Source of the DNA: Moraxella sp.
Lineage (GTDB): Bacteria; Pseudomonadota; Gammaproteobacteria; Pseudomonadales; Moraxellaceae
Direction of reading: 5' to 3'
NCBI GenBank assembly: GCA_030528385.1
Contig: JAUMYZ010000016.1
Coordinates: forward strand, 1-39,345
DNA length: 39,345 nt
A model generated the notes under the pieces. That model was given only the letters and a program-made list of their open reading frames with translations, did not search any database and had not been told where the DNA came from. Position numbers and translations under genes: made by a program. Shown one piece after another: positions 25,606 through 39,345 of this stretch; positions within the stretch are counted from its first letter, which is position 1, and the number at the start of each line of letters is the position of its first letter.

Positions 25606-26004
25606 TTAATCACCCCAGCTTAACTTAATCAATGCTTTGGCATGGGCAATGGCGTTCTTTTTGGTTAAATATAACATGTTATTATTTGGGATATTTTTAT
25701 CCACTTCGCTGTTATCCCACATAACAATCGTATAAATCGGTTTCAGATAAATCGGGCGCATGGTAGGTCTGCCTAAATGCTAGCTCACCTTGATAAGGCT
25801 TGGGAAACGACACATCGCCAACGGCAATCATTTCTTATGTCAAGCGAAACTGATGTCTGTCATCCAATAAATCGACAACAGAATGCCAATTGTCTTTAAA
25901 ATACCCCCCCCATTTGTCATTGGGCTCACTTTTAGGTTTGAATTTAACACTTTTACCGTCAATCAGGGCTTGGAGCACTTCTTGGGGGTAAGTGAGTTGG
26001 TCAT
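25606..26004 (-). pseudogene. Decayed small phage-type gene
   Basis: On the minus strand an AAGGAG eight bases before an ATG at 26004 marks the old start, but the coding-like frame is displaced by one base just after it: DQLTYPQEVLQALIDGKSVK, then DKWGGYFKDNWHSVVDLLDD. A TAA interrupts, it continues MIAVGDVSFPKPYQGELAF with a TAG, and another frame then gives IYTIVMWDNSEVDKNIPNNN and ALIKLSWGD to a TAA at 25606. PQEVLQALIDGK-type openings occur in phage proteins of unknown function. The gene is broken in several places. Confidence 0.45.
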
Positions 26005-26080
26005 TGGTTGTCTCCTTAAATTTAACAACCTTTCTGTATGGACAACAGGTTGTAAATCAATAAAATTATAAGTCAAACAA

Positions 26081-26110
26081 AAAAGTCAATAACCTAAGTT
26101 ATTGACTTTT
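26081..26110 (-). terminator. Strong hairpin at the end of the minus-strand early phage operon
   Basis: AAAAGTCAATAAC (26081-26093) is perfectly complementary to GTTATTGACTTTT (26098-26110) with a CTAA loop: a 13-base-pair stem. On the minus strand it is followed by a T run. It lies 76 bases after the last minus-strand gene and fits a Rho-independent terminator; the symmetry would also allow use on the other strand. Confidence 0.6.
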
Positions 26111-26185
26111 AAGGATTTATCTGGTGGATGGCGGACTACAAATTAGCAAAATAACTAATTGATTAAAATAGATTTTTTTAAAATA

Positions 26186-26395
26186 TTAAAAATCCTGTGT
26201 GTTATTTGTGTGTAAATTTACTTCGCCACGCTGCATCTTGTTCAAAGTATCATCAACAGTGGCTTGTGTCCAGAATTTTCTTGTGCCAGTTTGCATCTGT
26301 GGCTCAGGAATATTTGGTAAATAATGCTTCTTAAATGTATTCAAACAAACACCAGCTTTTCTTGCAAATTCTGACATATTGACCCATTTTATCAT
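26186..26395 (-). CDS. Small phage DNA-binding protein, MerR/excisionase-like helix-turn-helix
   Basis: A 69-residue protein: MIKWVNMSEFARKAGVCLNT, FKKHYLPNIPEPQMQTGTRK, FWTQATVDDTLNKM. SEFARKAGVCLNTFKKHY reads as a helix-turn-helix that picks a tyrosine-rich wing, and GTRKFWTQATVDDTL as the wing-helix seen in excisionase-like and Nu1-type proteins. Its exact role is unknown. Its ATG overlaps the stop of the frameshifted gene upstream (ATGA), showing an operon. A hairpin terminator follows. Confidence 0.6.
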   Translation of the reverse strand: MIKWVNMSEFARKAGVCLNTFKKHYLPNIPEPQMQTGTRKFWTQATVDDTLNKMQRGEVNLHTNNTQDF

Positions 26396-26533
26396 ATCAA
26401 TTTCCCATGCTCATCAAAAAAACGGCACAACTTATCTGGGAAACTTGCTCTTTAGTCCCATCAGATACAACTGATAATGTTCAGGATTGCAGTAAGTTAG
26501 ATAAACGGCGATGTGGTTTGGTAGCTTAATCAT
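26392..26533 (-). pseudogene. Very small phage gene with a one-base frameshift
   Basis: On the minus strand ATG 26533 opens MIKLPNHIAVYLTYCNPEHY and QLYLMGLKSKFP, then stops after 33 codons at 26432. One base shifted, the frame runs DKLCRFFDEHGKLI to a TGA at 26392-26394 that overlaps the ATG of the next gene. The start also overlaps the end of the gene upstream (ATGATTAA). Overlaps on both sides imply an intact ancestor of about 46 residues; an extra C in the CCC run around 26440 explains the break. Sequencing error is possible. Confidence 0.5.
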
Positions 26534-26876
26534 CTTGCACCCCTTGATTGCGTCCAGCTTCGCCATCGGACGGCTCTGGCTCATATGGTTTTAAAAACTT
26601 GAATGCCACACGCTCATTGTGAGTTGTGGCATATATCATGGCGTCTTTGTAGTGTGTAAAATCGGCTAGTATCGTGTTGCCATCTTTGTTCACACAACGC
26701 AAGCGGACGTATCGGTATTCAGGGCGGATAACGTAGCTAAGGGCAATGCCTTCAGCTTCCCACGTTTCCGTTTTTGGCTTTGCCAAATCAGGGAGTGGAT
26801 TGTGTATAGCTTCATTTTTAGTCCTTGTTGTCGTGAAATTCAATAAATTCAGCGCCACTTTTAAATACGGGTGCAT
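26526..26876 (-). CDS. Phage protein of unknown function
   Basis: A 116-residue protein without a recognised domain. The region GIALSYVIRPEYRYVRLRCV and KDAMIYATTHNERVAFKF suggests a compact alpha/beta fold; the C-terminus is acidic (EPEPSDGEAGRNQGVQDD). ATG 26876 overlaps the DUF6283-like gene by 16 bases and has no ribosome binding site. A better site, AAGGA six bases before an ATG at 26815-26813, lies in another frame, so the true start is uncertain and a frameshift near the N-terminus is possible. Confidence 0.5.
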   Translation of the reverse strand: MHPYLKVALNLLNFTTTRTKNEAIHNPLPDLAKPKTETWEAEGIALSYVIRPEYRYVRLRCVNKDGNTILADFTHYKDAMIYATTHNERVAFKFLKPYEPEPSDGEAGRNQGVQDD

Positions 26877-27196
26877 TGGTATCTAACTGGCTGGGGCTCA
26901 TAGATACCAAGTGCAACTGCCATTCTTAGTGCTTGGGATTGGGCAGTCGCCCGCTTATTTTCAAGCATGATTAACGCCCCTGCACAAAACTGGTGGTCTT
27001 TTTGGTGGACAAAATTGCCCTGTTTATCATGACTGTCTTGGGAATGGTCATGTGTTTTGTGGCAGGGAAATAATCCACCATCAAGCAGATTGTCGTAGAT
27101 TTCTGTTGCCCGTGCTTCACCGAGCCAGCCCCGTTGATGGGGCTTGTCGTTTCTAAATGGGCAGTCTTTGCAGGGTTTTTTAAGATTGAATTTCAT
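26861..27196 (-). CDS. Cysteine-rich phage protein, DUF6283-like
   Basis: A 111-residue protein starting MKFNLKKPCKDCPFRNDKP with a C-x(2)-C-P-F-R motif, then RATEIYDNLLDGGLFPCHKT, HQFCAGALIMLEN and RMAVALGIYEP. The cysteine and histidine spacing (CxxCPFR, CHKT, CAG) suggests a metal-binding fold and matches phage proteins known as DUF6283. Function unknown. ATG 27196 has GGAG seven bases upstream; it sits 4 bases after the preceding gene. Confidence 0.65.
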   Translation of the reverse strand: MKFNLKKPCKDCPFRNDKPHQRGWLGEARATEIYDNLLDGGLFPCHKTHDHSQDSHDKQGNFVHQKDHQFCAGALIMLENKRATAQSQALRMAVALGIYEPQPVRYQCTRI

Positions 27197-27200
27197 GGGG

Positions 27201-27386
27201 TTACTCCACGTTTTCTAAAACATCTGTAACGACATTTAAAGCGTAATTAAGTGTCTTAAGAATAATTTGACTACGCTTAGGGTTGCTTATTGATGTATTC
27301 TCAATACGATTAGTGTCTAATTCATATTCAATTTTGTTAATCAAGGCTTGGAAATCTACATCAACTTCAACTTTCATATTAGACAT
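27201..27386 (-). CDS. Small phage protein of unknown function
   Basis: A 61-residue, acidic, probably helical protein (MSNMKVEVDVDFQALINKIE, YELDTNRIENTSI, ILKTLNYALNVVTDVLENVE). No domain recognised. ATG 27386 has AGGAG seven bases upstream. It is the first gene of the minus-strand block; the sequence beyond it changes abruptly into a truncated methyltransferase on the other strand, so upstream genes of this operon may have been lost. Confidence 0.5.
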   Translation of the reverse strand: MSNMKVEVDVDFQALINKIEYELDTNRIENTSISNPKRSQIILKTLNYALNVVTDVLENVE

Positions 27387-27416
27387 TTCTTACTCCTGCT
27401 TATCGGTCAGTAATTT

Positions 27417-27824
27417 ATGGACAAGGGCTATCAAGTATTAAGCACTGATTTAATAGACAGGGGATTTGGAACGGGTGGCATAGATTTTTTAACCACCAAT
27501 CAACGCTTTGATGGCGGGGTAATCATCACCAATCCGCCATTTAAGCACGCCAATCAATTTGTAACAACTGCCATCAATAAAATCTCTGATGGTGATTGGG
27601 TGTGCTTATTTTTACGCACATTGTTTTTAGAAGGTAAAATAAGAAAAAACTATTTGAGCAATATCCACCTAAATATGTGTATGTATCATCAGGCAGAATT
27701 ACTTGTAAAAAGCCAAATTATACAGGTAATCAATCCGCCATGAGTTTTAGCTGGTTTGTGTGGCAAAAAAGGTCATCACGGCGATACGATGGTAAGATGG
27801 TTTGATGTGGGGGATTACAGATGA
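27417..27824 (+). pseudogene. Truncated and frameshifted phage DNA methyltransferase
   Basis: The frame from 27417 (MDKGYQVLSTDLIDRGFGTG, GIDFL) continues to IITNPPFKHANQFV, the catalytic N/D-P-P-F motif of adenine-N6 methyltransferases. The SAM-binding motif I that should precede it is absent; an in-frame stop lies just upstream. Near 27645 the frame moves: KLFEQYPPKYVYVSSGRITC and SAMSFSWFVWQK continue in another frame, and near 27765 it moves again to KKGHHGDTMVRWFDVGDYR, ending in a TGA at 27822-27824. That stop overlaps the next ATG (ATGA), confirming that the shifted frames once formed the gene. It must be inactive. Confidence 0.7.
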
Positions 27825-28258
27825 CAGAATACAAAAACCTTGACATGATAAGACAAATGATGAGCCAAAAAAGCCCCAGTAACTTTAAAAGCAATGTTGG
27901 TCAATCCACCACCAATGATTTAGATTTGGCGGACGCCAGTGGCTGTTTGATGTACATCAGCAGACACACGCCCACCGACAACCCAAATCTTATGCGTACT
28001 GCCGTGGCGTGCTATGTACAAGACGATAAAAGACAAGCCTTTTATGATGAAGTGGTCAAACTGGCTCAAAATGGTTACCAATCCAAAAGATTGAGAAAGA
28101 AACACGCCAAAAATCTTGCAAAGGCGGTGGTGATTGATACAATGCAGTGTGCTTTAACAGACAAGCAAAAAGCAAAAACGTTAGGTATTACCAAATCAAC
28201 ATTTTGCGAGCATCACGCCAAAGTATTTGACCAATTATCAGGGGGAAGTCATGGGTGA
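27821..28258 (+). CDS. Phage regulator-like protein, possible Q-type late antiterminator
   Basis: A 145-residue protein. The middle region is alpha-helical (KRQAFYDEVVKLAQNGYQSK, RLRKKHAKNLAKAVV), and the C-terminal part ALTDKQKAKTLGITKSTFCE has the spacing of a sigma-like helix-turn-helix. Position immediately before a promoter-terminator leader and the terminase genes is where lambda-like phages keep Q. I cannot prove the Q function from sequence; a generic late regulator is the safer reading. The start overlaps the end of the broken methyltransferase by 4 bases. Confidence 0.5.
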   Translation: MTEYKNLDMIRQMMSQKSPSNFKSNVGQSTTNDLDLADASGCLMYISRHTPTDNPNLMRTAVACYVQDDKRQAFYDEVVKLAQNGYQSKRLRKKHAKNLAKAVVIDTMQCALTDKQKAKTLGITKSTFCEHHAKVFDQLSGGSHG

Positions 28259-28343
28259 ATTAAGTCTTGCTGATGACACAGCAAAAGACTACTGGCGAAA
28301 AACATTTAAGTCTTGACAAAACCGAACAAAAATAGTACCATTT

Positions 28344-28352
28344 TGCTATAAT
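28344..28352 (+). promoter_or_regulatory. Extended -10 promoter, candidate phage late promoter
   Basis: TGCTATAAT at 28344-28352 is a consensus extended -10 element. A TTGACA lies at 28313-28318 but is 28 bases away, too far for a normal -35 box; the proper window has only GAACAA. Transcription should start near 28359, about 120 bases before the terminase small subunit. Confidence 0.5.
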
Positions 28353-28402
28353 GGTGTGAAGTATAGATATATACCTTTCGCTATTTTTTTAAATTAAAAT
28401 TA

Positions 28403-28459
28403 AACCCAAAGCAGTACGCTACCACGCCATGAGTGAACAGCCGAGCCTTTGGGTTTTTT
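28403..28459 (+). terminator. Leader terminator between late promoter and terminase
   Basis: AACCCAAAG (28403-28411) pairs with CTTTGGGTT (28447-28455), loop of 35 bases, followed by T to 28459. The 9-base-pair stem plus T run would stop a transcript starting near 28359 after about 100 bases, as tR' does in lambda. Confidence 0.55.
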
Positions 28460-28481
28460 ATTGCCCAACAAAGGAGGGCTT

Positions 28482-28898
28482 ATGACAGCAAAGAAGCCCA
28501 AGATGGGCAGACCAACGATTTATAGTGATGATTTGGCAACAGAGTTTCTGTATCGCATTGCCAAAGGTCGTTCAGTAAAAAGCGTGTGCGATGATGACGA
28601 TATGCCACACCGTGCCACGATTTATGAACGGCTGTCTCAAAATTCGGACTTTTCCGACAGGTACGCGCGTGCGTGCGAGCAAAGAGCTGACCAGTATTTT
28701 GATGAAATGCTGGATATTGCCGATAATGCCCTGCCAGAAGAAGTACAAAAAGCCAAATTGCAAATCGATAATCGAAAATGGGTACTTGCCCGTATGAATC
28801 CTGTTAAATATGGCGATAAAACGAACAAGGACGCAAATACCAAGGTTATTGATTTAATGGCAGATTTCATGAAGGAGTTATCAAATAAGGGGGAGTGA
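28482..28898 (+). CDS. Phage terminase small subunit
   Basis: A 138-residue protein. KKPKMGRPTIYSDDLATEFL begins a helix-turn-helix region (GRSVKSVCDDDDMPHRATIY), then YERLSQNSDFSDRYARACEQ and a long helix; this is the pattern of small terminase subunits that recognise the packaging site. ATG 28482 has AAGGAGGG seven bases upstream, the strongest ribosome binding site of the region. Its TGA overlaps the following terminase start. Confidence 0.85.
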   Translation: MTAKKPKMGRPTIYSDDLATEFLYRIAKGRSVKSVCDDDDMPHRATIYERLSQNSDFSDRYARACEQRADQYFDEMLDIADNALPEEVQKAKLQIDNRKWVLARMNPVKYGDKTNKDANTKVIDLMADFMKELSNKGE

Positions 28899-30372
28899 TG
28901 TTTGATAAGCTAAAAGACCCCTTATATCGCCTAAATAACCTGTATTACATTACCGATAAGACAGGCAAAAAGGTCAAATTTAACATGACTGCCGAACAGT
29001 TGGTATATTTTCAAGGTGAACACCACAAAAACATCATTTTAAAAGCACGGCAATTAGGTTTTACGACCCAAGTATGCATTATGCAACTTGATTGTGCGTT
29101 ATTTGAAAGTAAAAAGTGTGCGTTAATCGCCCATACCTTGCATGATGCCAAACGACTGTTTCGTGAAAAGGTCAAGTATGCGTATGACCATCTACCAGAG
29201 CTTATCAAACTTGCCAATCCTGTCAAGATTGAAACCAAAGAAGAATTGGTTTTTGACAATGGCGGTAGTATCACAGTCAGCACATCATTTCGTGGTGGGA
29301 CTCTGCAGCGTTTGCATGTCTCAGAGTTTGGTAAGATTTGTGCCAAATACCCAGACAAAGCCCGTGAGATAGTAACGGGGGCATTTGAAGCTGTGCCTAC
29401 CCATGGCATTGCCACGTTAGAAAGTACAGCAGAAGGTCGGCAGGGTTATTTTTATGAGTATTGCCAAATTGCCGAAAAACTAGCCTTAGTTGGCAAAGAC
29501 TTGACCGCCCAAGATTGGCGGTTTTTCTTTTTTGCTTGGTGGCAAAACCCTGATTATCAGATTGATGTTAGTGAGCCGTTGCCTGAGCGTTTAGTGGTGT
29601 ATTTTGACGAATTAAGAGCAAAACATGGCATTGAGACCACGCCCAATCAACAAGCATGGTACTACGCCAAAGAGAAAACCCTTGGCGATGATATGAAACG
29701 CGAATATCCGTCATTGCCAGCCGAAGCCTTTGAGCAATCCATTGAAGGGGCGTATTATGCTAAGCAATTTGCTTACTTGTACGCCAATAATCGCATTACC
29801 AAGTTGTCTGACAATAACCATCTGCCCATTGATACTTTTTGGGATTTGGGGGTGTCAGACAGCACCACGATTTGGTTTATCCGTACGGTGGGTGATGAGT
29901 TTCATGTGGTGGATTATTACGAAAACAGTGGCGAAGGTCTAAACCACTATTTGAAAGTCTTAAAAAGGGCTACAAATACGGTAGGCACGTTGCACCACAC
30001 GATATTGATAACCGCCAATTAGGGGCAAATCGTGCCAAAACTTTGCGTGAGCTTGCCCGTGATGGCTATGAGATTGATAAAGAGCGGTATGGCGTGAATT
30101 TTGATGTTGTGCCACGCACAACCAATGTCAATGAAGACATTGAAAAGGTTCGCCAAATCCTACCCAAATGTGCTTTTGATGCAATTAAGTGTGAACAAGG
30201 CATTAAAGCACTTGAAAGTTACCGCAAAGAGTGGAATGACAAACTTGGGGTATGGCGTGATAGACCGCTACATGATTGGTCGAGTCATGGGGCGGATGCG
30301 TTTAGGTATTTTGCAGTTTACCAGACCAAACAGCAGTATGCCTATACGACAACCTTGTCATTAACTTATTAA
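28898..30372 (+). pseudogene. Phage terminase large subunit, frameshifted near its C-terminus
   Basis: The packaging ATPase/nuclease. Visible: Walker A-like KARQLGFTTQV near residue 50, Walker B-like LQRLHVSEFGK, and the ASTAEGRQGYFYEY-type coupling region (LESTAEGRQGYFYEY). The RNase H-like nuclease domain begins with TFWDLGVSDSTTIWF and ends with LHDWSSHGADAFRYFA, whose aspartates are the metal ligands. The first frame runs to 30022 and ends in NTVGTLHHTILITAN; from about 29955 a second frame gives ESLKKGYKYGRHVAPHDIDN, then GANRAKTLRELARDGYEID and on to the stop at 30372. A one-base indel near 29950-29960 breaks the gene. The truncated product would lack the last nuclease aspartate. Confidence 0.85.
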
Positions 30373-30385
30373 GATTAAGATAATT

Positions 30386-31789
30386 ATGCTAATTGACACC
30401 AAGCACCCAGCCTATGTGGCAATGCAAAAGCGATGGCAACGTATGCAAGATGTATGCAATGGTGAAGATGTCATTAAGGCCAAAAGCACACTATATTTGC
30501 CTAAGCCAAATCCGCATGATTTAAGTGTTGAAAACGAGCTAAGATATAAAGAATATTTAGAGCGAGCGGTATTTATTGAAGTTACCAAAGACACACTGGA
30601 TAAATATGCAGGACAAGCGTTTGATACTGACCCTATTTTAAATGTTCATCAAAACCTAGCTTATTTACGCCAAAATGCCACAGGCAAAGGCTTAACGATT
30701 TATCAAGTTGCCCAAAAGTGCTTTATTGATTTGTTGCGTTATGGGCGATGTGGGGTATTGGTGGATTATCCTGATACCACGCCTTTTAAAAATCAAGACG
30801 GTGAAATACCACTAAATATTAGCGAAAATTTACACCCAAATTTGGCGTTTTATGATGCGTTTAGTATCATCAATTGGCGTATCGTAGATAATCAGCTTGT
30901 TATGGTGATTTTGGTAGAAAATATTGAAATGGTAAGTGGTGATGGTTTTGGTACGGATTATGTCAAGCAATATCGTTATTTGGGATTGGATGAGCTTGGA
31001 TATTTTGTTGAGATTTGGCAAGAAAGTAAGGGTGATTTAATACAAGTTGGTGAGCGTGTTTATCCTAAATTTAATAACCAGACATTAAAAAATATTCCAT
31101 TTATTATCATGGAAGCAGATGGTAATGATTTTAGCGAACAATCCATTCCGCTTGAAAGTTTAGCCAAAATTAACCTTGCTCACTATCGCAACAGTGCTGA
31201 TTATGAAGACAGTGTATTTCGTTGTGGACAGGTACAGCCCTTTTTAAGTGGGGTCAGTCGTGAGCGTTTGTAGTATTTAGAAGATAAGGACATTAAGATT
31301 GGTAGTGCCACCGCCTTAATGCTGGAACCTAACAGCAGTTTTGGCTATGCCCAAGCCAGCCCTAATTCACTAGTCTATGAAGCCATGCAAGACAAATATG
31401 CCATGATGAAACAATTGGGAGCAAAACTGATAGAAACAACCGCCAATAAAACTGCCACACAAGCCAGCCAAGAAAACAGCACACAAAACAGTATTGCCAG
31501 TATGTGTATTGCTAACATCAATGAAGCCTTTAATTTGGCGTTACAGTACATTTATCATTTTGCCAATTTGGATTATAAAGATGATGTATTATTCAAGGCA
31601 AAACAAGAATTTTATACACCAACACCAGAGCCTAGCATGATGACAGGTTTGATGGCGTTAGTTCAAAGTGGACTTGCACCAAAAAATGTTGTATTTAATT
31701 ATTTGCGTAAACATAATTTAATCAATAGCGAGCTTAGTGATGATGATTTGCAAGGCATGATTGAAGCGGATAATCCAGATGATTTATGA
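30386..31789 (+). pseudogene. DUF4055-type phage portal protein with an in-frame TAG
   Basis: About 467 codons. It opens MLIDTKHPAYVAMQKRWQRM, then RAVFIEVTKDTLDKYAGQAF, FIDLLRYGRCGVLVDYP and a C-terminal part KDIKIGSATALMLEPNSSFG, QDKYAMMKQLGAKLIE; together these match DUF4055 portal-like proteins. A TAG at 31271-31273 follows SGVSRERL, and the same frame continues YLEDKDIKIGSATAL, so a single substitution (for example CAG to TAG) splits it. Reading past the TAG restores a normal-length protein ending at 31789. The stop overlaps the next start (ATGA). Confidence 0.8.
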
Positions 31790-33327
31790 AACATATTATC
31801 AACCTTGAACGCCTAAAAAGCCAAATGGCAAAAGAATTTGGGATAACCGTAGAATAAATTAACCAATATCTACAAAAAGAATTCTTCAATAAAGAAATCA
31901 GCCAACTTAACCAAAGACAGCTTCGCCAGACACTTACCAATGCAAATGGTGAGTTAAAAAGACTTTTTGGGGCGTATGCTAATGACTTAAAAGAAGATTG
32001 GAGAAGACTATTTGACCATCACTATCAATTACAAGCAGGTGAAACTTACTGCCAGTATTTAAACACACCCAAAGCCTTACAAGCCTATGCCGATAAAATA
32101 TTTGATAAGCCATTGAGTTTAACAGCCAATACGGGCATTAGCCTCAATGAGCTTTTAGCAAAATTTAGTGATGATGAAGCCAAAAAAATCACCAATGCCA
32201 TACGGCTAGCACACCATGAAGGCTTGCCTAATAGTAAACTTGTGCAGATGATACGTGGTTCAAAAGCACAGCGTTATCAAGATGGGATATTGGCAACTAC
32301 AACCCGCCATGCTAAAACCATTGCCAACACAGGCACGGCGATTATGGCAAGCCAAGCCAAACAGCAATTCATCAAAGACAACAAAGATACCGTGTGTGGC
32401 ATTAAGGTGGTGGCAACCTTGGATTTACGCACCAGCGCCATTTGTCGGCATTTAGATGGTGAGTTTATGCCCATTGAAAGGGCTAAATATCCGCCATACC
32501 ATTTTAATTGTCGTTCGTCTTTTGAGATTATTTATGATGGTTATATACCGCCAAAACAGCGTGCCAGCATGAATGGTGTGGTGGAAAATCAAACTTATTA
32601 TGAGTGGTTAAAAACCCAACCCAACAATTATCAAGATGAGGTGTTAGGAAAAAAGCGTGCTAAACTGTTTCGTGATGGGGGTATGACTGCTGAAAAGTTT
32701 AAACAACTTCAATTTGATAGGATTTTTTTACCGATGAGTCTCAAAGAGCTTATTAAGGCTGAAAATGTAACGTCAATCGCAAAACCAAGTTATCAAATTG
32801 TGAGCTTACAAAACCTAAGACCACGTCAAAGTGAAGTTGTAAGGTTGCAACATGAACCAATTAAGCGTGGAGAGAAACCTAAAACACCAAGACCTGCTGA
32901 AGCTGAGTTAGCAGACTTATTGCAACAATATTTTGGTATTTACTTGGTGCGATATGATGACCGCTATCATAAGTCAAGCCCAATAGGCAATCCACCAGAC
33001 TTCGCCCAAAAAGACAATGATTTACCCGTTAAAAATTGGCAAACATTGGATATGATGTTTACCATGCTGGCTGATGACATCAAAGGTATTGTTGCAATGA
33101 ATTACACTATTAGCGAACATAAAAGACACGCTAGAAATTGGCGTGTGTTACAAGAGCAAATCATTGAACATATAGAAAAGTCTGATATTGTCCCACTTGA
33201 TTTACGTCATTGGAATCATGAAAATCGTACTAAAATTATTGATTTTGTGCTATCATTGATGAGCAGCAACGCAAAATCCTATTTATTGAGAAATGACCAT
33301 GGGTGTAATTTTTATAAACAATCGTGA
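31786..33327 (+). pseudogene. MuF-type head protein with long C-terminal extension, in-frame TAA at codon 24
   Basis: About 513 codons. ATG 31786 overlaps the portal stop; a TAA at 31855-31857 interrupts after MAKEFGITVE, and the same frame goes on open to 33327. A helical part precedes the MuF/SPP1 gp7 core with VVATLDLRTSAICRHLDGEF and YPPYHFNCRSSF (conserved Cys, His, Cys). YYEWLKTQPNNYQDEVLGKK then closes the MuF part. About 165 further residues after full-length residue 350 are not part of MuF proteins: EAELADLLQQYFGIYLVRYD, YTISEHKRHARNWRVL, PLDLRHWNHENRTKIIDFVL. MuF proteins of temperate phages often carry C-terminal toxin domains, so this is a candidate toxin. The family of the extension is not recognised. 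Confidence 0.8.
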
Positions 33328-33562
33328 AATTTGGTTGCCAAAATCTGTCTTTTTTGCAATTACAGATGATGTATTGGATTTTTTAAAAACCAAGATTGAT
33401 GAAAAAACTTACACACAAATTGCTGGTACTGCCAATGGTGTTGAGCAATTGGATTTGAGTGATTTGGACAACAATCTTATTAAACAAATACTTGATATTG
33501 CCAAACAAAATGGTGATAAATATGGTGAATTAAAACCATATATGGAAAAACTGATGAATTAA
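33293..33562 (+). CDS. Small protein behind the MuF extension, candidate immunity protein
   Basis: An 89-residue acidic protein, MTMGVIFINNREIWLPKSVF, FAITDDVLDFLKTKIDEKTY, LKPYMEKLMN at the end. No family recognised. It overlaps the 3' end of the MuF gene by 35 bases in another frame, and a terminator follows 34 bases after its stop, so it is tied to that gene. Its size, acidity and position fit immunity proteins of polymorphic toxins, but that is inference. A second ATG at 33299 is equally possible as the start. Confidence 0.6.
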   Translation: MTMGVIFINNREIWLPKSVFFAITDDVLDFLKTKIDEKTYTQIAGTANGVEQLDLSDLDNNLIKQILDIAKQNGDKYGELKPYMEKLMN

Positions 33563-33595
33563 TTTTTCTCTTAATCTCTTTCCACTAAACCACAG

Positions 33596-33618
33596 GCACC
33601 TTTTATAGGTGCTTTTTT
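33596..33618 (+). terminator. Terminator after the MuF extension and its small partner
   Basis: GCACCT (33596-33601) pairs with AGGTGC (33607-33612), loop TTTAT, followed by six T to 33618. It separates this pair from the scaffold gene. Confidence 0.65.
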
Positions 33619-33643
33619 CATGTCAAAAATTTCGGAGAAATAT

Positions 33644-34357
33644 ATGACACTTAGTTTTACCTTGAATGAAGAAGCATTTAACGGCTTAGAGAGCCATTTA
33701 CAAGGGTTGTATGCCAAACAAAATGATGGCAGTTATCAGCTCGCTATTGATGGCTTACCAAATACTGATGGATTAAAAGCCAAAAATGAACAGCTACTTG
33801 GCGAAACCAAAAAAGAGCGTGAAAAACGCAAAGAGCTAGAAGCTCAATTGGCACAAATTCAAGCTCAAAAACAAAAAGCAGATGAAGAAAGCCATAAGAA
33901 AAATGGCGATATTGAGGCTTTGGAGAAGTCTTATCAAGCTAAATTGGATAAGCTAAGCCATGACGCAACCCATCGTGAAGAGGCCCTAAAAAAGCAGATT
34001 TATGATTTGACCGTGGGACAAACAGCAAACAGTTTGGCTAATGAATTGGCAATTAAAGGTTCAGCAAACGTACTATTGCCACATATTCAAAACCGCCTAA
34101 TACTTGAAACAAGCGATGATGGGCAAAAAATCCGTGTGCTAGATTTGCAAGGCAATATCAGTGCATTAACCTTAGATGAATTGAAACAAGAATTTATGGC
34201 AAATGATGCGTTCAAGCCTTTGATTGCTGGCAATAGTGCTTCTGGTGGGGGTGCTGTGGGCGTAAATCGTGGTGTACGTGCAGTGCCAAAAACCCTAGCC
34301 GAGTGCAAAACAGATGATGAGCGTATTGCATGGCTAAATAACCAACATGGAGCATGA
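33644..34357 (+). CDS. Phage capsid scaffold-like protein
   Basis: A 237-residue protein dominated by a coiled coil (LKAKNEQLLGETKKEREKRK, ELEAQLAQIQAQKQKADEES) in the middle, with a globular C-terminal part and a flexible glycine-rich stretch (SASGGGAVGVNRG) before the final helix. This layout and the position directly before the coat gene are typical of siphovirus scaffolds (DUF6651-like). ATG 33644 has GGAG six bases upstream; an in-frame ATG at 33620 lies inside the preceding terminator and is less likely. It overlaps the coat gene by 4 bases. Confidence 0.75.
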   Translation: MTLSFTLNEEAFNGLESHLQGLYAKQNDGSYQLAIDGLPNTDGLKAKNEQLLGETKKEREKRKELEAQLAQIQAQKQKADEESHKKNGDIEALEKSYQAKLDKLSHDATHREEALKKQIYDLTVGQTANSLANELAIKGSANVLLPHIQNRLILETSDDGQKIRVLDLQGNISALTLDELKQEFMANDAFKPLIAGNSASGGGAVGVNRGVRAVPKTLAECKTDDERIAWLNNQHGA

Positions 34358-35310
34358 TGATGACTTTTGATTTAGTAAAATTTAACCAAGAAACCCACAC
34401 TGTGATGACCGAAGTCATCGCTCAACAAGTAGAGCTATTTAATGCTCAATCTAACGGCACAATCCAAATGCTCGCCAAGCCATTTCGGGGTGATTTTGAT
34501 GTATCGTCTATGTTTAAGGCAATTGCAGGACTTGTGCGTCATCGTGATGTAGAAAATGGACAAAACGCCATTTCATCAGCACGCCTAATCCAACATAAAA
34601 ACGTGGCGGTAAAAATTGCCACAGGTACGCCTGAAATCTTATGGGAGCCCGCACAGTATCAATGGACTTTGCAAAATCCACAGCTGGCAGCGATTAAAAT
34701 CGGTGAACAGCTTGGACGAGCCACCATTGCCGATATGCTAAATGCTGCCATTAAATGTGGTGTTTCAGACATCAAAGGCAATACCGCAGTCGTTGAAAGT
34801 GATGGCATAAAACCGCTTGATTTTGCTACCTTAACTCGTGGTGCAAGTCGTTTTGGTGACCGCTCAGGGGCGATTAGTGCGTGGGTCATGCACTCAGGGG
34901 CGTTAACGCAATTGCAACTAAATGCACTAGGTAACAACGAGCGTCTATTTACTTATGATAATGTCAGCGTACTAAGGGACCCACAAGGTCGCTTGTTTAT
35001 TGTTACTGATTGTCCTGATTTGGTGGATAGTGGCAAGCATAACATTTTGGGTTTGACCAAAGGTGGTATCATTATCAACAACCAAAATGATTTTAACAGC
35101 GTGATTGTACCAAAAACAGGCAAAGAGAATATTACCAATGCTTATCAAGCAGAATGGTCATATTCGGCGTCTGTTAAGGGTTATAATTGGGACACTACCG
35201 CAGGTGGGGCAAATCCAAACGCAGGTGCTTTGGCAGCGCCTACCAATTGGAAAAAGACAGCAAGTGATAACAAAGACACCGCAGGGGTGCTTGTCATCAG
35301 CAAGGCGTAA
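34354..35310 (+). CDS. Phage major coat protein
   Basis: A 318-residue protein immediately after the scaffold gene. Features: TVMTEVIAQQVELFNAQSNG, FRGDFDVSSMFKAIAGLVRH, AISAWVMHSGALTQLQLNAL, FTYDNVSVLRDPQGRLFIVT and NILGLTKGGIIINNQNDF, a set seen in phage coat proteins with the HK97 fold. The C-terminal part (YSYSASVKGYNW-like repeats, TAGGANPNAGALAAPTNW) is consistent. ATG 34354 overlaps the scaffold stop. Function is assigned on position plus pattern. Confidence 0.8.
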   Translation: MMMTFDLVKFNQETHTVMTEVIAQQVELFNAQSNGTIQMLAKPFRGDFDVSSMFKAIAGLVRHRDVENGQNAISSARLIQHKNVAVKIATGTPEILWEPAQYQWTLQNPQLAAIKIGEQLGRATIADMLNAAIKCGVSDIKGNTAVVESDGIKPLDFATLTRGASRFGDRSGAISAWVMHSGALTQLQLNALGNNERLFTYDNVSVLRDPQGRLFIVTDCPDLVDSGKHNILGLTKGGIIINNQNDFNSVIVPKTGKENITNAYQAEWSYSASVKGYNWDTTAGGANPNAGALAAPTNWKKTASDNKDTAGVLVISKA

Positions 35311-35321
35311 AGGGGTAGGGT

Positions 35322-35561
35322 ATGCGTATTTTGTACTTTACCACCGATTTTAGCGAGAAAAATCAAGCCTTTGCCAAAGAGTATGGTTTATTAATCCGCA
35401 ATGCTGGTGCGTATGGTGTGATTGACTTTGTGGAGCGGTGCGACATGGTCTTTGGCGAAATTCCAAAGGCTTATGAGCATTTACCAAAGTTTGAATTGCA
35501 AAAAAGCAAACAAGAGCCAAAACACAAAACCAAACAACCAAAGCTCAATGAGCAAGAATAA
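35322..35561 (+). CDS. Small phage protein of unknown function
   Basis: A 79-residue protein, MRILYFTTDFSEKNQAFAKE, YGLLIRNAGAYGVIDFVERC, then a lysine-rich tail (KSKQEPKHKTKQPKLNEQE). It follows the coat gene after 11 bases. The location suggests a decoration or head-completion protein, but nothing in the sequence proves it. A terminator follows directly. Confidence 0.6.
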   Translation: MRILYFTTDFSEKNQAFAKEYGLLIRNAGAYGVIDFVERCDMVFGEIPKAYEHLPKFELQKSKQEPKHKTKQPKLNEQE

Positions 35562-35563
35562 AA

Positions 35564-35585
35564 AAAAGGGGGCTTACCCCCTTTT
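35564..35585 (+). terminator. Terminator after the coat-associated gene
   Basis: AAAAGGGGG (35564-35572) pairs with CCCCCTTTT (35577-35585), loop CTTA: a strong 9-base-pair stem ending in TTTT. Confidence 0.65.
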
Positions 35586-35643
35586 GGAATTTTTATGAAT
35601 GATTTTAATCATGAATTTAAAAAGCTGAGAAGTGGTGGTGTCC

Positions 35644-36015
35644 ATGCTTAGCTTAGATGATTTGCAAACAGTAGTGAGCGAACAAAAAGAAAGCGAGCAA
35701 CAGCGTATTTTACTGATTGTCAATGCCTACATTGCTGGCAAGGGGGTAAAAATCACAGGCGAAGTGCCAAACGCCATCAAACAAGCAGGAGTTGAACTGG
35801 CACAAGGTTTTATTAAGGGTGAACTGTTGGCAGGACGTAACGAAGGTGTTGTTGTCTCAAAAACCGCCAAAGCTGGTGAAGTTTCCACATCAAAAACCTA
35901 TGCACAAGGTGCAGATGGTCAAGCGATGGGGCAACATGAGATGATAGCCTTAACGCTGATTGAGCCTTATATTATTAAGGGTGCGCCTTTGTTTGTTGGA
36001 GTTGGTAGGATTTGA
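35644..36015 (+). CDS. Phage head-tail connector-like protein
   Basis: A 123-residue protein, MLSLDDLQTVVSEQKESEQQ, RILLIVNAYIAGKGVKITGE, HEMIALTLIEPYIIKGAPLF. The order in the head-tail module suggests a connector or head-completion protein. ATG 35644 has no strong ribosome binding site; an in-frame GTG at 35632 is possible. A tiny frame of 18 codons with a good site begins at 35595 (MNDFNHEFKKLRSGGVHA) and ends over this start, perhaps an older start separated by a frameshift. Confidence 0.6.
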   Translation: MLSLDDLQTVVSEQKESEQQRILLIVNAYIAGKGVKITGEVPNAIKQAGVELAQGFIKGELLAGRNEGVVVSKTAKAGEVSTSKTYAQGADGQAMGQHEMIALTLIEPYIIKGAPLFVGVGRI

Positions 36016-36359
36016 AACAAGAAATCACAAACGAGCTTAAACAAGCCTTTGACGCTGATTTAAAAGACGCTGTGAGAGCTTTTACCGCCACAAGAGATAC
36101 GCCAAGCGATGATGATTGGGCGAGTAATGACAACCAAAGCGAGCAAAGCACATATACAGGGCGTGGCGTGTTTAGTAATTATCAGGCACATGAAATAGAT
36201 GGACAAAGCATTGCTATACACGATGTTAAATTGATTTGTTTGGCTGATGAACTGACCGATACACCCAAGATTGATGATGTAATTGACGGTAAAAGAGTGC
36301 TTGCAGTGGGTGCTGACCCAGCAGGCATATCATTGACGATACAATTAAGGGGGCTATGA
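36012..36359 (+). CDS. Phage head-closure or neck-like protein
   Basis: A 115-residue protein beginning MKQEITNELKQAFDADLKDA, later STYTGRGVFSNYQAHEIDGQ and VLAVGADPAGISLTIQLRGL. The beta-rich second half (SIAIHDVKLICLADEL) resembles head-closure proteins that plug the portal, but this is by pattern and position. The start is a TTG at 36012 overlapping the previous stop; no ATG fits. It overlaps the next gene by 4 bases. Confidence 0.6.
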   Translation: MKQEITNELKQAFDADLKDAVRAFTATRDTPSDDDWASNDNQSEQSTYTGRGVFSNYQAHEIDGQSIAIHDVKLICLADELTDTPKIDDVIDGKRVLAVGADPAGISLTIQLRGL

Positions 36360-36796
36360 TGTGGAGTACGCCACCATCTTTATTCGCCAACTTGGTTGCT
36401 GATGAAGTGGATAGAAAGTATCGCAAGTTTGCCACTGATGTGTATAACAATTTGGTAGCACTTAGCCCAGTTGATACTGGCAGATATAAGGCAAACCATA
36501 TTATCAGTATTGGTTCACCTAATTTCAGTCAGCTAAGCAGTACAACCGAGCAAGGAAGTGGTGTTGTTCTCACCATTCCACGCCATACTTACCCAACGAT
36601 TTATATTCAAAATAATTTGCCCTATGCCAGCGTGATTGAATTTGGGGGTTATCCCAATCCTGTAAAACGTGGTACAAGGGTCAAAAGAAATGGTAAATGG
36701 GTGTATGAGATTCGTTCAAGTGGTGGTTTTAGTATCAAAGCCCCAACAGGCGTTTATGGTAACGCCTTTTGGTCAGCCATTGCCATGCAAATTTAA
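36356..36796 (+). CDS. HK97 gp10-like tail-completion protein
   Basis: A 146-residue protein with the HK97 gp10 pattern: DVYNNLVALSPVDTGRYKAN, where L-x-P-V-D-T-G-x-x is the family signature, then NLPYASVIEFGGYPNPVKRG and a C-terminal GFSIKAPTGVYGNAFWSAI. These proteins join the head to the tail tube. It overlaps both the upstream gene and, by 4 bases, the convergent higA gene. Confidence 0.82.
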   Translation: MMWSTPPSLFANLVADEVDRKYRKFATDVYNNLVALSPVDTGRYKANHIISIGSPNFSQLSSTTEQGSGVVLTIPRHTYPTIYIQNNLPYASVIEFGGYPNPVKRGTRVKRNGKWVYEIRSSGGFSIKAPTGVYGNAFWSAIAMQI

Positions 36797-37143
36797 GCCA
36801 GCAGGCTCTCATAAGGGATATTTAGCCCCTTGTGCAACTTTTTAATCATACTAAGGCTAAGTGAGCGTTTACCGTTTAGCACTTCGGATATTTTGCTTTT
36901 TGCTCCTAAATAAGGCACTAAATCATCACGGTTTAGTCCTTTTTGCTCCATGACAAAGGTAATGGCACTGATGGGGTCGGCATGGGGAATGGAATAGTGC
37001 TTGGCTTCATAGTTTTCAATGAGAGCGAGCAAGATGTCTCGCTCATCGGCTTGCTTTGTACCATTTTCGGCAAAAAACACCGTTTCAAGGGCGATAAAGG
37101 CTTGTGTTAGGTCATTATCATTGCGAATGGGCTTAATAGTCAT
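36793..37143 (-). CDS. higA: HigA-type antitoxin with XRE helix-turn-helix
   Basis: A 116-residue antitoxin. Its last 60 residues carry an XRE helix-turn-helix: ISAITFVMEQKGLNRDDLVP, YLGAKSKISEVLNGKRSLSL, ending MIKKLHKGLNIPYESLLA, the HigA pattern. The N-terminal half (TIKPIRNDNDLTQAFIAL) would bind the toxin. Start ATG 37143 overlaps the higB end by 11 bases, so toxin precedes antitoxin as usual in higBA. It lies on the minus strand within a plus-strand tail module, so it is an inserted cassette. It should repress its own promoter. Confidence 0.87.
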   Translation of the reverse strand: MTIKPIRNDNDLTQAFIALETVFFAENGTKQADERDILLALIENYEAKHYSIPHADPISAITFVMEQKGLNRDDLVPYLGAKSKISEVLNGKRSLSLSMIKKLHKGLNIPYESLLA

Positions 37144-37447
37144 TGATGGTCTCCACATCTATGTTGTCGTATTCGGCGTGTGTGCCGATGAATTTTATCC
37201 AAACCACACCAATTTGGTAGGCAATGGCAACCACCAAGCGGTATTTGTTGCCACCAATATTAAAAACCACTCGGTTGTTGGCAATAAAACTGGCGTGGGC
37301 AAACTCATCTTTGATGTCTTGAGGTGTTTGCCAATCGGCTTTACTAACAATGTCATGCCAAGCAATTAGGGGGCTTTTAGCATCTGCGTGGCTTTCATAA
37401 TATTTTACTAAGGTACGTTTGGCAATCACTCTCACAGCTTTATCCAT
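37133..37447 (-). CDS. higB: HigB-type mRNA interferase toxin
   Basis: A 104-residue protein of the HigB family (RelE-like ribosome-dependent mRNA endonucleases). MDKAVRVIAKRTLVKYYESH, WHDIVSKADWQTPQDIKDEF and NNRVVFNIGGNKYRLVVAIA, then VVWIKFIGTHAEYDNIDVET match the family; R-V-V-F-N-I-G-G-N-K-Y-R-L is the hallmark. Intact and in frame. First gene of higBA, 17 bases downstream of its -10 box, transcribed from 37447 leftward. With its antitoxin it stabilises the prophage or acts in phage defence, by family. Confidence 0.9.
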   Translation of the reverse strand: MDKAVRVIAKRTLVKYYESHADAKSPLIAWHDIVSKADWQTPQDIKDEFAHASFIANNRVVFNIGGNKYRLVVAIAYQIGVVWIKFIGTHAEYDNIDVETINDY

Positions 37448-37464
37448 GTTTATTTGTTGGGTTT

Positions 37465-37493
37465 ATTATAGTTCCCAAAATGGGAATTGTCAA
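37465..37493 (-). promoter_or_regulatory. higBA promoter with operator palindrome
   Basis: On the minus strand TTGACA (37493-37488), exactly 17 bases, and TATAAT (37470-37465): a perfect consensus promoter. Its spacer contains TTCCCA-AAA-TGGGAA (37472-37486), a 15-base palindrome, ideally placed for a dimeric HigA to block RNA polymerase. It also abuts the ribosome binding site of the next gene on the plus strand (GGGGA near 37494). Confidence 0.8.
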
Positions 37494-37503
37494 GGGGAAA
37501 TAG

Positions 37504-37893
37504 ATGAACAGTTTGCAGATTGAACAACTTATTTTACAAAGGATAAGCCAATGGGAACACTTTGATAAAAACCGCTTGGCAAGGGATAACCGCAATCTTA
37601 AACCACCCAATGATGGTGTGTGGGGTAGGATAACTGTGGCAGGTGGTGTGAATAGCATCGCTAGTATTAGTGATGAACCTTGTATCATGCAGGTTGGTAC
37701 ATTGATTATTCAGTTATTTTGTAGGGAAAATGTAGGCACAGTAGAACTAAAACGCCATGCTGACAGCCTAGCCAAACACTTAAAGGCATATACGGTGGAC
37801 AAGCTAGAACTGCTTGCACCAAGCATTATCAATGTGCCATCGGTTGATGGTCTGTATCAAATCAATGTCAGTTTGCCGTATAGGTATTATTAA
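37504..37893 (+). CDS. Phage tail terminator-like protein
   Basis: A 129-residue protein, MNSLQIEQLILQRISQWEHF, GRITVAGGVNSIASISDEPC, LIIQLFCRENVGTVELKRHA, PYRYY at the end. Beta-alpha pattern and place between the gp10-like and tail-tube genes fit the tail terminator (lambda gpU-type), which ends the tail tube. ATG 37504 follows AGGGGAAA. The gene was separated from the upstream gp10-like gene by the higBA insertion. Confidence 0.65.
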   Translation: MNSLQIEQLILQRISQWEHFDKNRLARDNRNLKPPNDGVWGRITVAGGVNSIASISDEPCIMQVGTLIIQLFCRENVGTVELKRHADSLAKHLKAYTVDKLELLAPSIINVPSVDGLYQINVSLPYRYY

Positions 37894-37915
37894 TTTTATA
37901 AATCATATTTTCACA

Positions 37916-37952
37916 ATCCCATAGATTTTCTTGTCAATCTGTGGGATTTTTT
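37916..37952 (+). terminator. Terminator before the Rha-family gene
   Basis: ATCCCATAGATT (37916-37927) pairs with AATCTGTGGGAT (37936-37947) with one mismatch, loop of eight bases, followed by T to 37952. Confidence 0.7.
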
Positions 37953-37988
37953 ATATGGCAAGAAATGTTACGTTCGGAGAGATTAAAT

Positions 37989-38501
37989 ATGAATGTAGAA
38001 CTGGTAACGGTTGATGACGGTCAGCCAAAAACAACAACCCTACAAATTGCACAGGGTTTGGATTTAAAACACAAAACTGTCTTTTAGTTGGTGAACAGCT
38101 ATTTGCCTGATTTTATGGAATTTGGCGATGTGGTATTTAAAAAGACGAATTCGGCATTTGAAATGCGAAATTCCACGCAGGGTCGTTGGACTAGATATGC
38201 TGAACTCAATGAACAGCAAGCCACGTTTTTAATGACACTCATGCGTAACAGCCCCAAAGTGATTGCCTTTAAAAAAGCATTGGTACAAGCATTCTTTTAT
38301 GCTCGCTCATTGCTACAAAGCGAAACTATGGGTCTGATGCAACAATACGCATTATTGAGTGATTTAAAAGAGCGTGAACAAGCATTTGCCAGTTTGTGTG
38401 GCAAAGGTCTATCAGGCTGGAAAAAGAAAAGAGACTGTTTGCAAAATGCCATTGCCGAAGTGCAAAAACAATTACAGCCCCAACTGCCTTATTTTGATTA
38501 A
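37989..38501 (+). pseudogene. Rha-family phage regulatory protein with an in-frame TAG
   Basis: ATG 37989 has CGGAGAG six bases upstream and opens MNVELVTVDDGQPKTTTLQI, AQGLDLKHKTVF, then a TAG at 38085-38087. The same frame continues LVNSYLPDFMEFGDVVFKK, RYAELNEQQATFLMTLMRNS, PKVIAFKKALVQAFF. Together this is the Rha (pRha) domain followed by a helical C-terminus. A glutamine codon CAG fits the interrupted position. Rha genes in phages are accessory regulators. It is bracketed by terminators at 37916-37952 and 38505-38528, the signature of an inserted phage cassette. It is broken unless the stop is read through. Confidence 0.75.
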
Positions 38502-38504
38502 CCA

Positions 38505-38528
38505 CCCACAAGTCAAGTGGGCTTTTTT
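38505..38528 (+). terminator. Terminator after the Rha-family gene
   Basis: CCCAC (38505-38509) pairs with GTGGG (38517-38521), loop of seven bases, followed by CTTTTTT. A modest stem, but with a good T run. Confidence 0.55.
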
Positions 38529-38540
38529 ATGGAGTAATTT

Positions 38541-39345
38541 ATGTCTCGTGGCTCAAAAGTGGTGCTGAACTACGCACCACAAACCAATAAAGACGTACCA
38601 AAAACGGGGTGGAAAAATCTACCCTATAAATCCAATGGTCTATCGGTGAGCATTGAAAACACCGAAAGCGAAACCATCACTGACAGTCGCATCACCCAAG
38701 CAGGTCTGCCAACAAGTGGACAAGTGCAAGGCGATATTGAAGTAGAGTTTGCCAAAGAAGCCTATGATGATTGGCTATCTGCCACCGCCTGCAATGAGTG
38801 GGCGACAAATGTACTTACCTTTGGCGGTAATGTTGCCAAAGCCTTTGCGGTGGAAGTATCTCACAAAGATGTGGGTGTAAACCATCTGTACGCAGGTCTT
38901 AGGGTGAGTACATTCAGTCTTTCCATTGGAGAAAGTGGCTATGCCACCGCCAAATTTGGCGTAATGGGAACTGACTATAAAAACCAAAATGACACCGCAT
39001 TTAGCAAAACCCCAACGCCATCAGGTGAGTTAAAACGTGCCACGTCTTTATCGGTAGAAGACATTAAAATTGATGGTGTTACCACCAAAGGCGTGGCGTG
39101 TGTTACCGAATTTAGCTTTGAACTGGATAACAACATTCAAGCCCAAAAGTGTCTTGGCGATGGCATCTTTGCAGGGGTATTGCTTGAGATGATGGCAAAA
39201 ATGAGCGGTTCTCTCACCCTAGCTTATGGCAAAAAAGCTCAAGAAATTGTCAATAGGCAAATGACAGGAGCAACCATTGCGATTGAACTTACCCTTAAAT
39301 TTAGCGATGGCTCAAAATATGTGCTTGCTATTCCCAAAGCCCAAG
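38541..39345 (+). CDS. Phage major tail tube protein (3' end outside window)
   Basis: The frame from ATG 38541, with GGAG seven bases upstream, is open to the right edge (268 codons). It begins MSRGSKVVLNYAPQTNKDVP, then VSIENTESETITDSRITQAG, VQGDIEVEFAKEAYDDWLSA and GLRVSTFSLSIGESGYATAK; the IETFSIE/STFSLSI-type strand, the E-S-E-T-I-T-D-S-R motif and length are those of lambda gpV/T5-like siphovirus tail tube proteins with an added domain. Position after the tail terminator supports it. The C-terminus and exact length are unknown. Confidence 0.75.
   Translation, partial: MSRGSKVVLNYAPQTNKDVPKTGWKNLPYKSNGLSVSIENTESETITDSRITQAGLPTSGQVQGDIEVEFAKEAYDDWLSATACNEWATNVLTFGGNVAKAFAVEVSHKDVGVNHLYAGLRVSTFSLSIGESGYATAKFGVMGTDYKNQNDTAFSKTPTPSGELKRATSLSVEDIKIDGVTTKGVACVTEFSFELDNNIQAQKCLGDGIFAGVLLEMMAKMSGSLTLAYGKKAQEIVNRQMTGATIAIELTLKFSDGSKYVLAIPKAQ

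Follow-up and report, generated by a model that had tools for sequence, protein, structure and literature searches.

The window analyzed here, a 39,345-nucleotide stretch of a Moraxella sp. genome, contains on its forward strand a phage MuF head-protein gene whose start codon (ATG, 31786) overlaps the stop codon of the portal gene, followed by a small gene (33293 to 33562). Very probably, the two genes form a polymorphic toxin/immunity module of the MuF type, belonging to a Moraxella prophage and comprising a toxin of the tRNase type (transfer RNA-cleaving), broken in this copy, and its cognate immunity protein. The original prediction, made from the letters alone, centred on a MuF polymorphic toxin of a phage, probably inactive, with its immunity gene behind it. 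Computation supports this claim through the domain match, the conserved active-site residues, the membership of the small protein in the immunity family, fold similarity and module swapping; the lesions were likewise computed.

The MuF reading frame continues for ∼188 codons past its head-protein part. An extension of ∼165 residues had been claimed; the extension itself is present, and its length is nearer to the former figure. The domain that it carries, initially described as unrecognized, is recognizable as a CdiA_C_tRNase-type toxin domain (32887 to 33254, forward strand; PF18664, E 3.6e-11, 43.8 bits against a curated cut-off of 26.5). Alignments place all five E479-type active-site residues in the window's domain (5/5), encoded at 32899 to 32901 (E), 32998 to 33000 (D), 33049 to 33051 (D), 33169 to 33171 (H) and 33199 to 33201 (D), and fold comparison assigns it the PD-(D/E)XK fold of the E479 type. 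As in CdiA-CT E479, this nuclease has a histidine in the position usually held by the catalytic lysine of the PD-(D/E)XK fold. By predicted fold, the toxin domain and, tentatively, the 89-residue product of the small gene match the two chains of a single toxin/immunity complex, 5J4A. A reading of 5J4A as the CysK-activated UPEC536 toxin was dropped, since 5J4A is E479. A PDB sequence search with the window's domain alone returned an aldo-keto reductase as its sole match (E 0.048).

Two histidine-rich stretches had been put forward as possibly catalytic, and both were ruled out. EHKRHARNW falls in the most variable segment of the family, only 3/26 identical to the relative at locus L005, and none of the histidines of DLRHWNHEN is invariant, the invariant histidine of the family being the one encoded at 33169 to 33171. 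On either side of this middle segment, whose alignment contains five gap columns, the toxins of the window and L005 are far more alike, with 49/57 identical positions in the first segment and 22/33 in the third.

The most likely substrate of the domain is the tRNA of the infected cell, whose loss would halt translation. That the nuclease attacks something else, for instance DNA, or acts inside the lysogen instead of after delivery, is unlikely: although DNases share this fold among CdiA-CT toxins (PMC9086364), the nearest solved relative is catalogued as a tRNase, and its distinctive histidine is invariant in the present family. For intact relatives, we infer that the MuF portion would seat a small number of toxin molecules beside the portal inside the phage head, and that the toxin would be delivered with the phage DNA into the cell. 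The C-terminal nuclease would then cut tRNA in the infected cell and stop translation, and the protein of the small gene, where expressed, would bind and neutralize the toxin, protecting prophage-carrying cells. Of the pair in the present genome, the immunity protein alone is predicted still to work.

The small gene, an open reading frame (ORF) of 89 codons on the forward strand lying directly 3′ of the toxin (33293 to 33562), encodes an acidic protein (14 D/E versus 10 K/R by sequence count), as had been claimed. A profile of 20 relatives, from which the window's protein was held out, matches it with E 2.6e-5, and the best match of its predicted model is the CdiI chain of 5J4A. Its sequence relationships thus support the assignment as the cognate immunity protein of the PF18664 toxin family. 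The terminator that had been noted after the pair corresponds to a terminator-like hairpin with a T run (33594 to 33614, forward strand), one of three such sites in the scanned stretch against 1.2 expected from shuffles; promoter-like sites show no excess (9 versus 7.9 in shuffles). Of the five matches from a PDB sequence search with the 89-residue protein, designed helical repeats ranked first, with no passing stretch. A scan of viral contigs found no relative of it, and neither Rfam nor tRNA searches of the window gave a hit.

The immunity proteins of the window and L005 are only 16% identical. Together with the 3/26 identity of the toxin's middle segment, this suggests that the variable middle segment may carry the contact with the cognate immunity protein. 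The correlation between toxin identity and immunity identity is weak across 16 loci (rho 0.17, p 0.06); across the 12 MuF loci without the near-copy L003, the corresponding values are rho 0.26 and p 0.03. An ORF of at least 55 residues lies beside the toxin at 24 of 25 loci, a set that includes overlapping stretches and copies and in which the unreadable L039 is counted as a miss, with the main candidate starting −62 to +12 nt from the toxin stop. As this frequency has no chance control, the evidence rests on the small proteins forming one family.

Upstream of the toxin domain, the MuF frame encodes the head-protein part (31858 to 32760, forward strand), which matches the PHROG 241 head morphogenesis family (residues 12 to 301 of the frame, E 2e-87) and Phage_Mu_F (PF04233, residues 113 to 221, E 6.5e-8, 33.7 bits against a cut-off of 29.6). 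A linker (32761 to 32886, forward strand) fills the gap between the PHROG and PF18664 matches, and the gene stands in a portal/terminase neighborhood.

Module swapping, which the original prediction had proposed as a check, is seen among related MuF cores. From 19 loci fetched, 16 were analyzed, leaving out the window itself, L069 and L070. Their ends differ: PF18664 in two, a phosphoribosyltransferase-like end in three (two scanned, both under the Pfam cut-off, and a third assigned by sight), an HExxH motif in two (seen by eye, with no family match), a Rel/XopAD-like end in one (partial NCBIfam match, E 1.2e-30) and a colicin D end in one (E 1.5e-11, above the cut-off). Six of the 16 have no extension, and one is a core fragment. 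The cores are 63 to 68% identical to that of the window for five measured cores plus L005, and down to 42% over all 16 loci. The HExxH, Rel-like and colicin D ends are followed at −4 nt by ORFs of 70 to 93 residues, and the phosphoribosyltransferase-like ends by no convincing small ORF. Behind the extensionless genes comes a long ORF, scaffold-like by eye, in 4/6, and a 111-residue ORF in the other two (L071 and L072). Nor, in the loci compared, did the small gene recur in unchanged form behind extensions of other kinds; neither of the two observations that the original prediction had named as refuting was made.

The toxin domain is likewise found on other carriers. By Pfam, PF18664 occurs on MuF proteins, on a Serratia protein with Phage_GPD and Gp5 domains (L034, labeled "VgrG" in this analysis) and on a PT-VENN protein of Leminorella (L036). 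Three Mu-type cores carry the same toxin domain as the window-type core, to which they show no significant BLAST similarity (E 0.21 or worse). A purely structural role of the extension, as a regular component of such head proteins, has a negligible probability: it does sit in a prophage head module, but 6/16 related loci do without it, others have unrelated ends, and the same domain is present on VgrG-like and PT-VENN proteins. Structural decoration was ruled out on the strength of related cores with no extension or a different end.

Individual loci among the related MuF genes deserve separate mention. In L066 (1342 to 2925), a MuF core is joined to a C-terminal part resembling the tail of XopAD-family proteins (NCBIfam, E 1.2e-30) and is followed by a 70-residue ORF at −4 nt. 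A phosphoribosyltransferase-like end under the Pfam cut-off is found on MuF proteins from Moraxella phage Mcat8 and from a congeneric genome (L055, 3429 to 5168, and L062, 1372 to 3132).

An intact open toxin gene is absent from the window. Only 23 codons of the MuF 5′ end precede an in-frame TAA (31786 to 31857, forward strand), which lies at codon 24 (31855 to 31857) as first reported; relatives are open through this position, and the window's frame is open again from 31858 to 33327. A second lesion lies near the toxin end, where the C-terminal tail shared by the relatives is missing from the MuF frame and its motif is present from ∼33249 in another frame (33249 to 33296, forward strand). 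This tail frame stops at 33294 to 33296, and the immunity gene begins at 33293 within the same ATGA. The 35-base overlap described for the two genes is thus literal in the sequence; it is not ancestral, being a product of the frame break at ∼33249, and was rejected as a feature. The toxin genes of the relatives L003 and L005 are open.

Further lesions affect neighboring genes. On the forward strand, the terminase large subunit gene (28895 to 30372) has a frame break near 29965, with PHROG matches to both pieces, and the portal gene (30386 to 31789) has an in-frame stop at 31271 to 31273, both pieces matching PHROG 145 portal. A Rha/ORF11CD3-type regulatory gene among the tail genes (37983 to 38501) has an in-frame stop within 37983 to 38492. 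With at least five lesions over ∼11 kb, the prophage is defective and decaying. The toxin gene carries two of them, and no working toxin is expected in this genome, in agreement with the suspicion that the toxin may be inactive; the immunity ORF is open, left intact by the TAA as had been proposed. Sequencing or assembly errors masking a toxin that is intact in the real prophage are improbable. Two of the lesions are frame breaks and the sequence is known from one assembly only, but the three others are stops within frames that are otherwise well open around them (portal 31271, MuF 31855 and the Rha-like gene), and the genome, in 20 contigs, has a completeness score of 99.98%. A search for near-identical DNA to 26000 to 39345 in phage records gave one partial terminase match only.

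PF18664 was found in 8 of 348 genomes of the window's family, and in a class-wide draw of 369 genomes only in the window's own; none of 14 control genomes contained it. Plasmid records yielded 3 matches in 72,556, one of them annotated as a phage minor head protein (Kingella potus), and phage records none in 50,697 (two queries). The window's genome has a second MuF-PF18664 gene, of Mu-type MuF and apparently N-terminally shortened (L020, 7961 to 9429; G000:C4:83960-85428), with its own downstream 99-residue ORF at a 4-base overlap. Another Moraxella genome, G221, has two separate damaged MuF-PF18664 loci (L024, 8376 to 9663, and L025, 2542 to 3713), each with an open small downstream ORF.

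The window's immunity protein has matches in 4 of the 348 family genomes, namely its own, G225 (E 1.2e-22) and two with weak, broken matches (E 9.3e-4). G225, another Moraxella, encodes a homologue 51% identical to that of the window and has no PF18664 match. By eye, the gene adjoins putative ileS and uracil permease genes. In the 210 bases 5′ of it, a weak match to the toxin tail ends just before the immunity start, equaled by 1 of 1000 dinucleotide shuffles; this sequence is probably a toxin fossil. The best match of a MuF-core search around the gene has E 0.006 and lies ∼5 kb away.

Damage to the toxin or its carrier is seen at seven loci, six of which retain an open immunity ORF (the window, G000:C4, G221:C39, G221:C7, G225 and G176), whereas that of L054 is broken. 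G000:C4 and G221:C39 are C-terminally intact, with carrier truncation judged by eye, and the seven do not include the non-phage locus L038, where the toxin is shortened and the small ORF open. It is tempting, though doubtful, to propose that immunity genes outlast phage-head toxins and that Moraxella keeps the antidotes of decayed prophages against incoming MuF-tRNase phages; if so, the window would represent an early stage (toxin broken, antidote open) and the lone G225 gene a late one. There is an even chance that the toxin and immunity identities are right and the locus is nevertheless plain debris, its immunity gene merely short, unhit and functionless here. With at least five lesions in ∼11 kb, a 270-bp gene usually escapes by its length, so its open state is unsurprising and tells little, and in L054 the toxin and immunity frames are both broken. 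Against plain debris stand the G225 homologue, which lacks a toxin and lies behind the probable fossil, and the open immunity ORF in 6/7 damaged loci, few as they are. Selection on the immunity genes cannot be claimed from so few loci.

Among other genes in the window, 36793 to 37447, which lies amid the head-tail genes and is read from the reverse strand, encodes a HigB-type toxin (PF09907, E 9.4e-33) together with a helix-turn-helix partner just below the cut-off (E 1e-4). A DUF6283 protein is encoded upstream of the packaging genes, also on the reverse strand (26861 to 27196; E 2.2e-6, above the cut-off).

Jamet et al. 2017 (PMC5576092) found toxin-bearing MuF proteins mainly in Firmicutes, left open the question of whether proteobacterial extensions are toxins and made the general proposal of MuF toxin delivery from the head with the DNA. 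One class of proteobacterial extension is now identified, a tRNase of the contact-dependent inhibition (CDI) type with its immunity protein. The PF18664 tRNase is common to phage heads, VgrG of the type VI secretion system type and PT-VENN proteins. Its delivery by a phage head becomes directly testable in Gram-negative lysogens, and the natural broken-toxin/open-immunity loci offer material for asking whether immunity genes persist as anti-phage defence. The pairing of MuF with PF18664 was not seen in phage records or in the titles and abstract openings of the literature searched, where the one paper naming PF18664 makes no mention of MuF.

Like the MuF toxins of PMC5576092, the window's protein combines a MuF N-terminus, a C-terminus common to other polymorphic-toxin families, a small downstream ORF and portal/terminase neighbors; unlike them, it belongs to a Moraxella host, bears a PF18664 domain and is broken. 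With the CdiA-CT/CdiI pair E479 (PDB 5J4A; PMC9086364, PMC9990079), it shares the toxin family, the five active-site residues, the predicted toxin fold and, tentatively, the predicted immunity fold, whereas its carrier is a phage head protein rather than CdiA, so that it is not a CDI system, and its tRNase role is predicted. The Bxa and Apk2 MuF toxins (PMC11699363) are likewise MuF fusions in prophage head modules with adjacent immunity genes, but they carry ADP-ribosyltransferase and alarmone synthetase domains of shown toxicity, in contrast to the predicted tRNase of the window. As with the orphan immunity genes of CDI and polymorphic-toxin loci (PMC9086364, PMC11699363), an antidote is kept without a working toxin, although here the lost toxin is phage-borne and the protection is predicted. 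MuF toxins and E479-type toxins are each already known.
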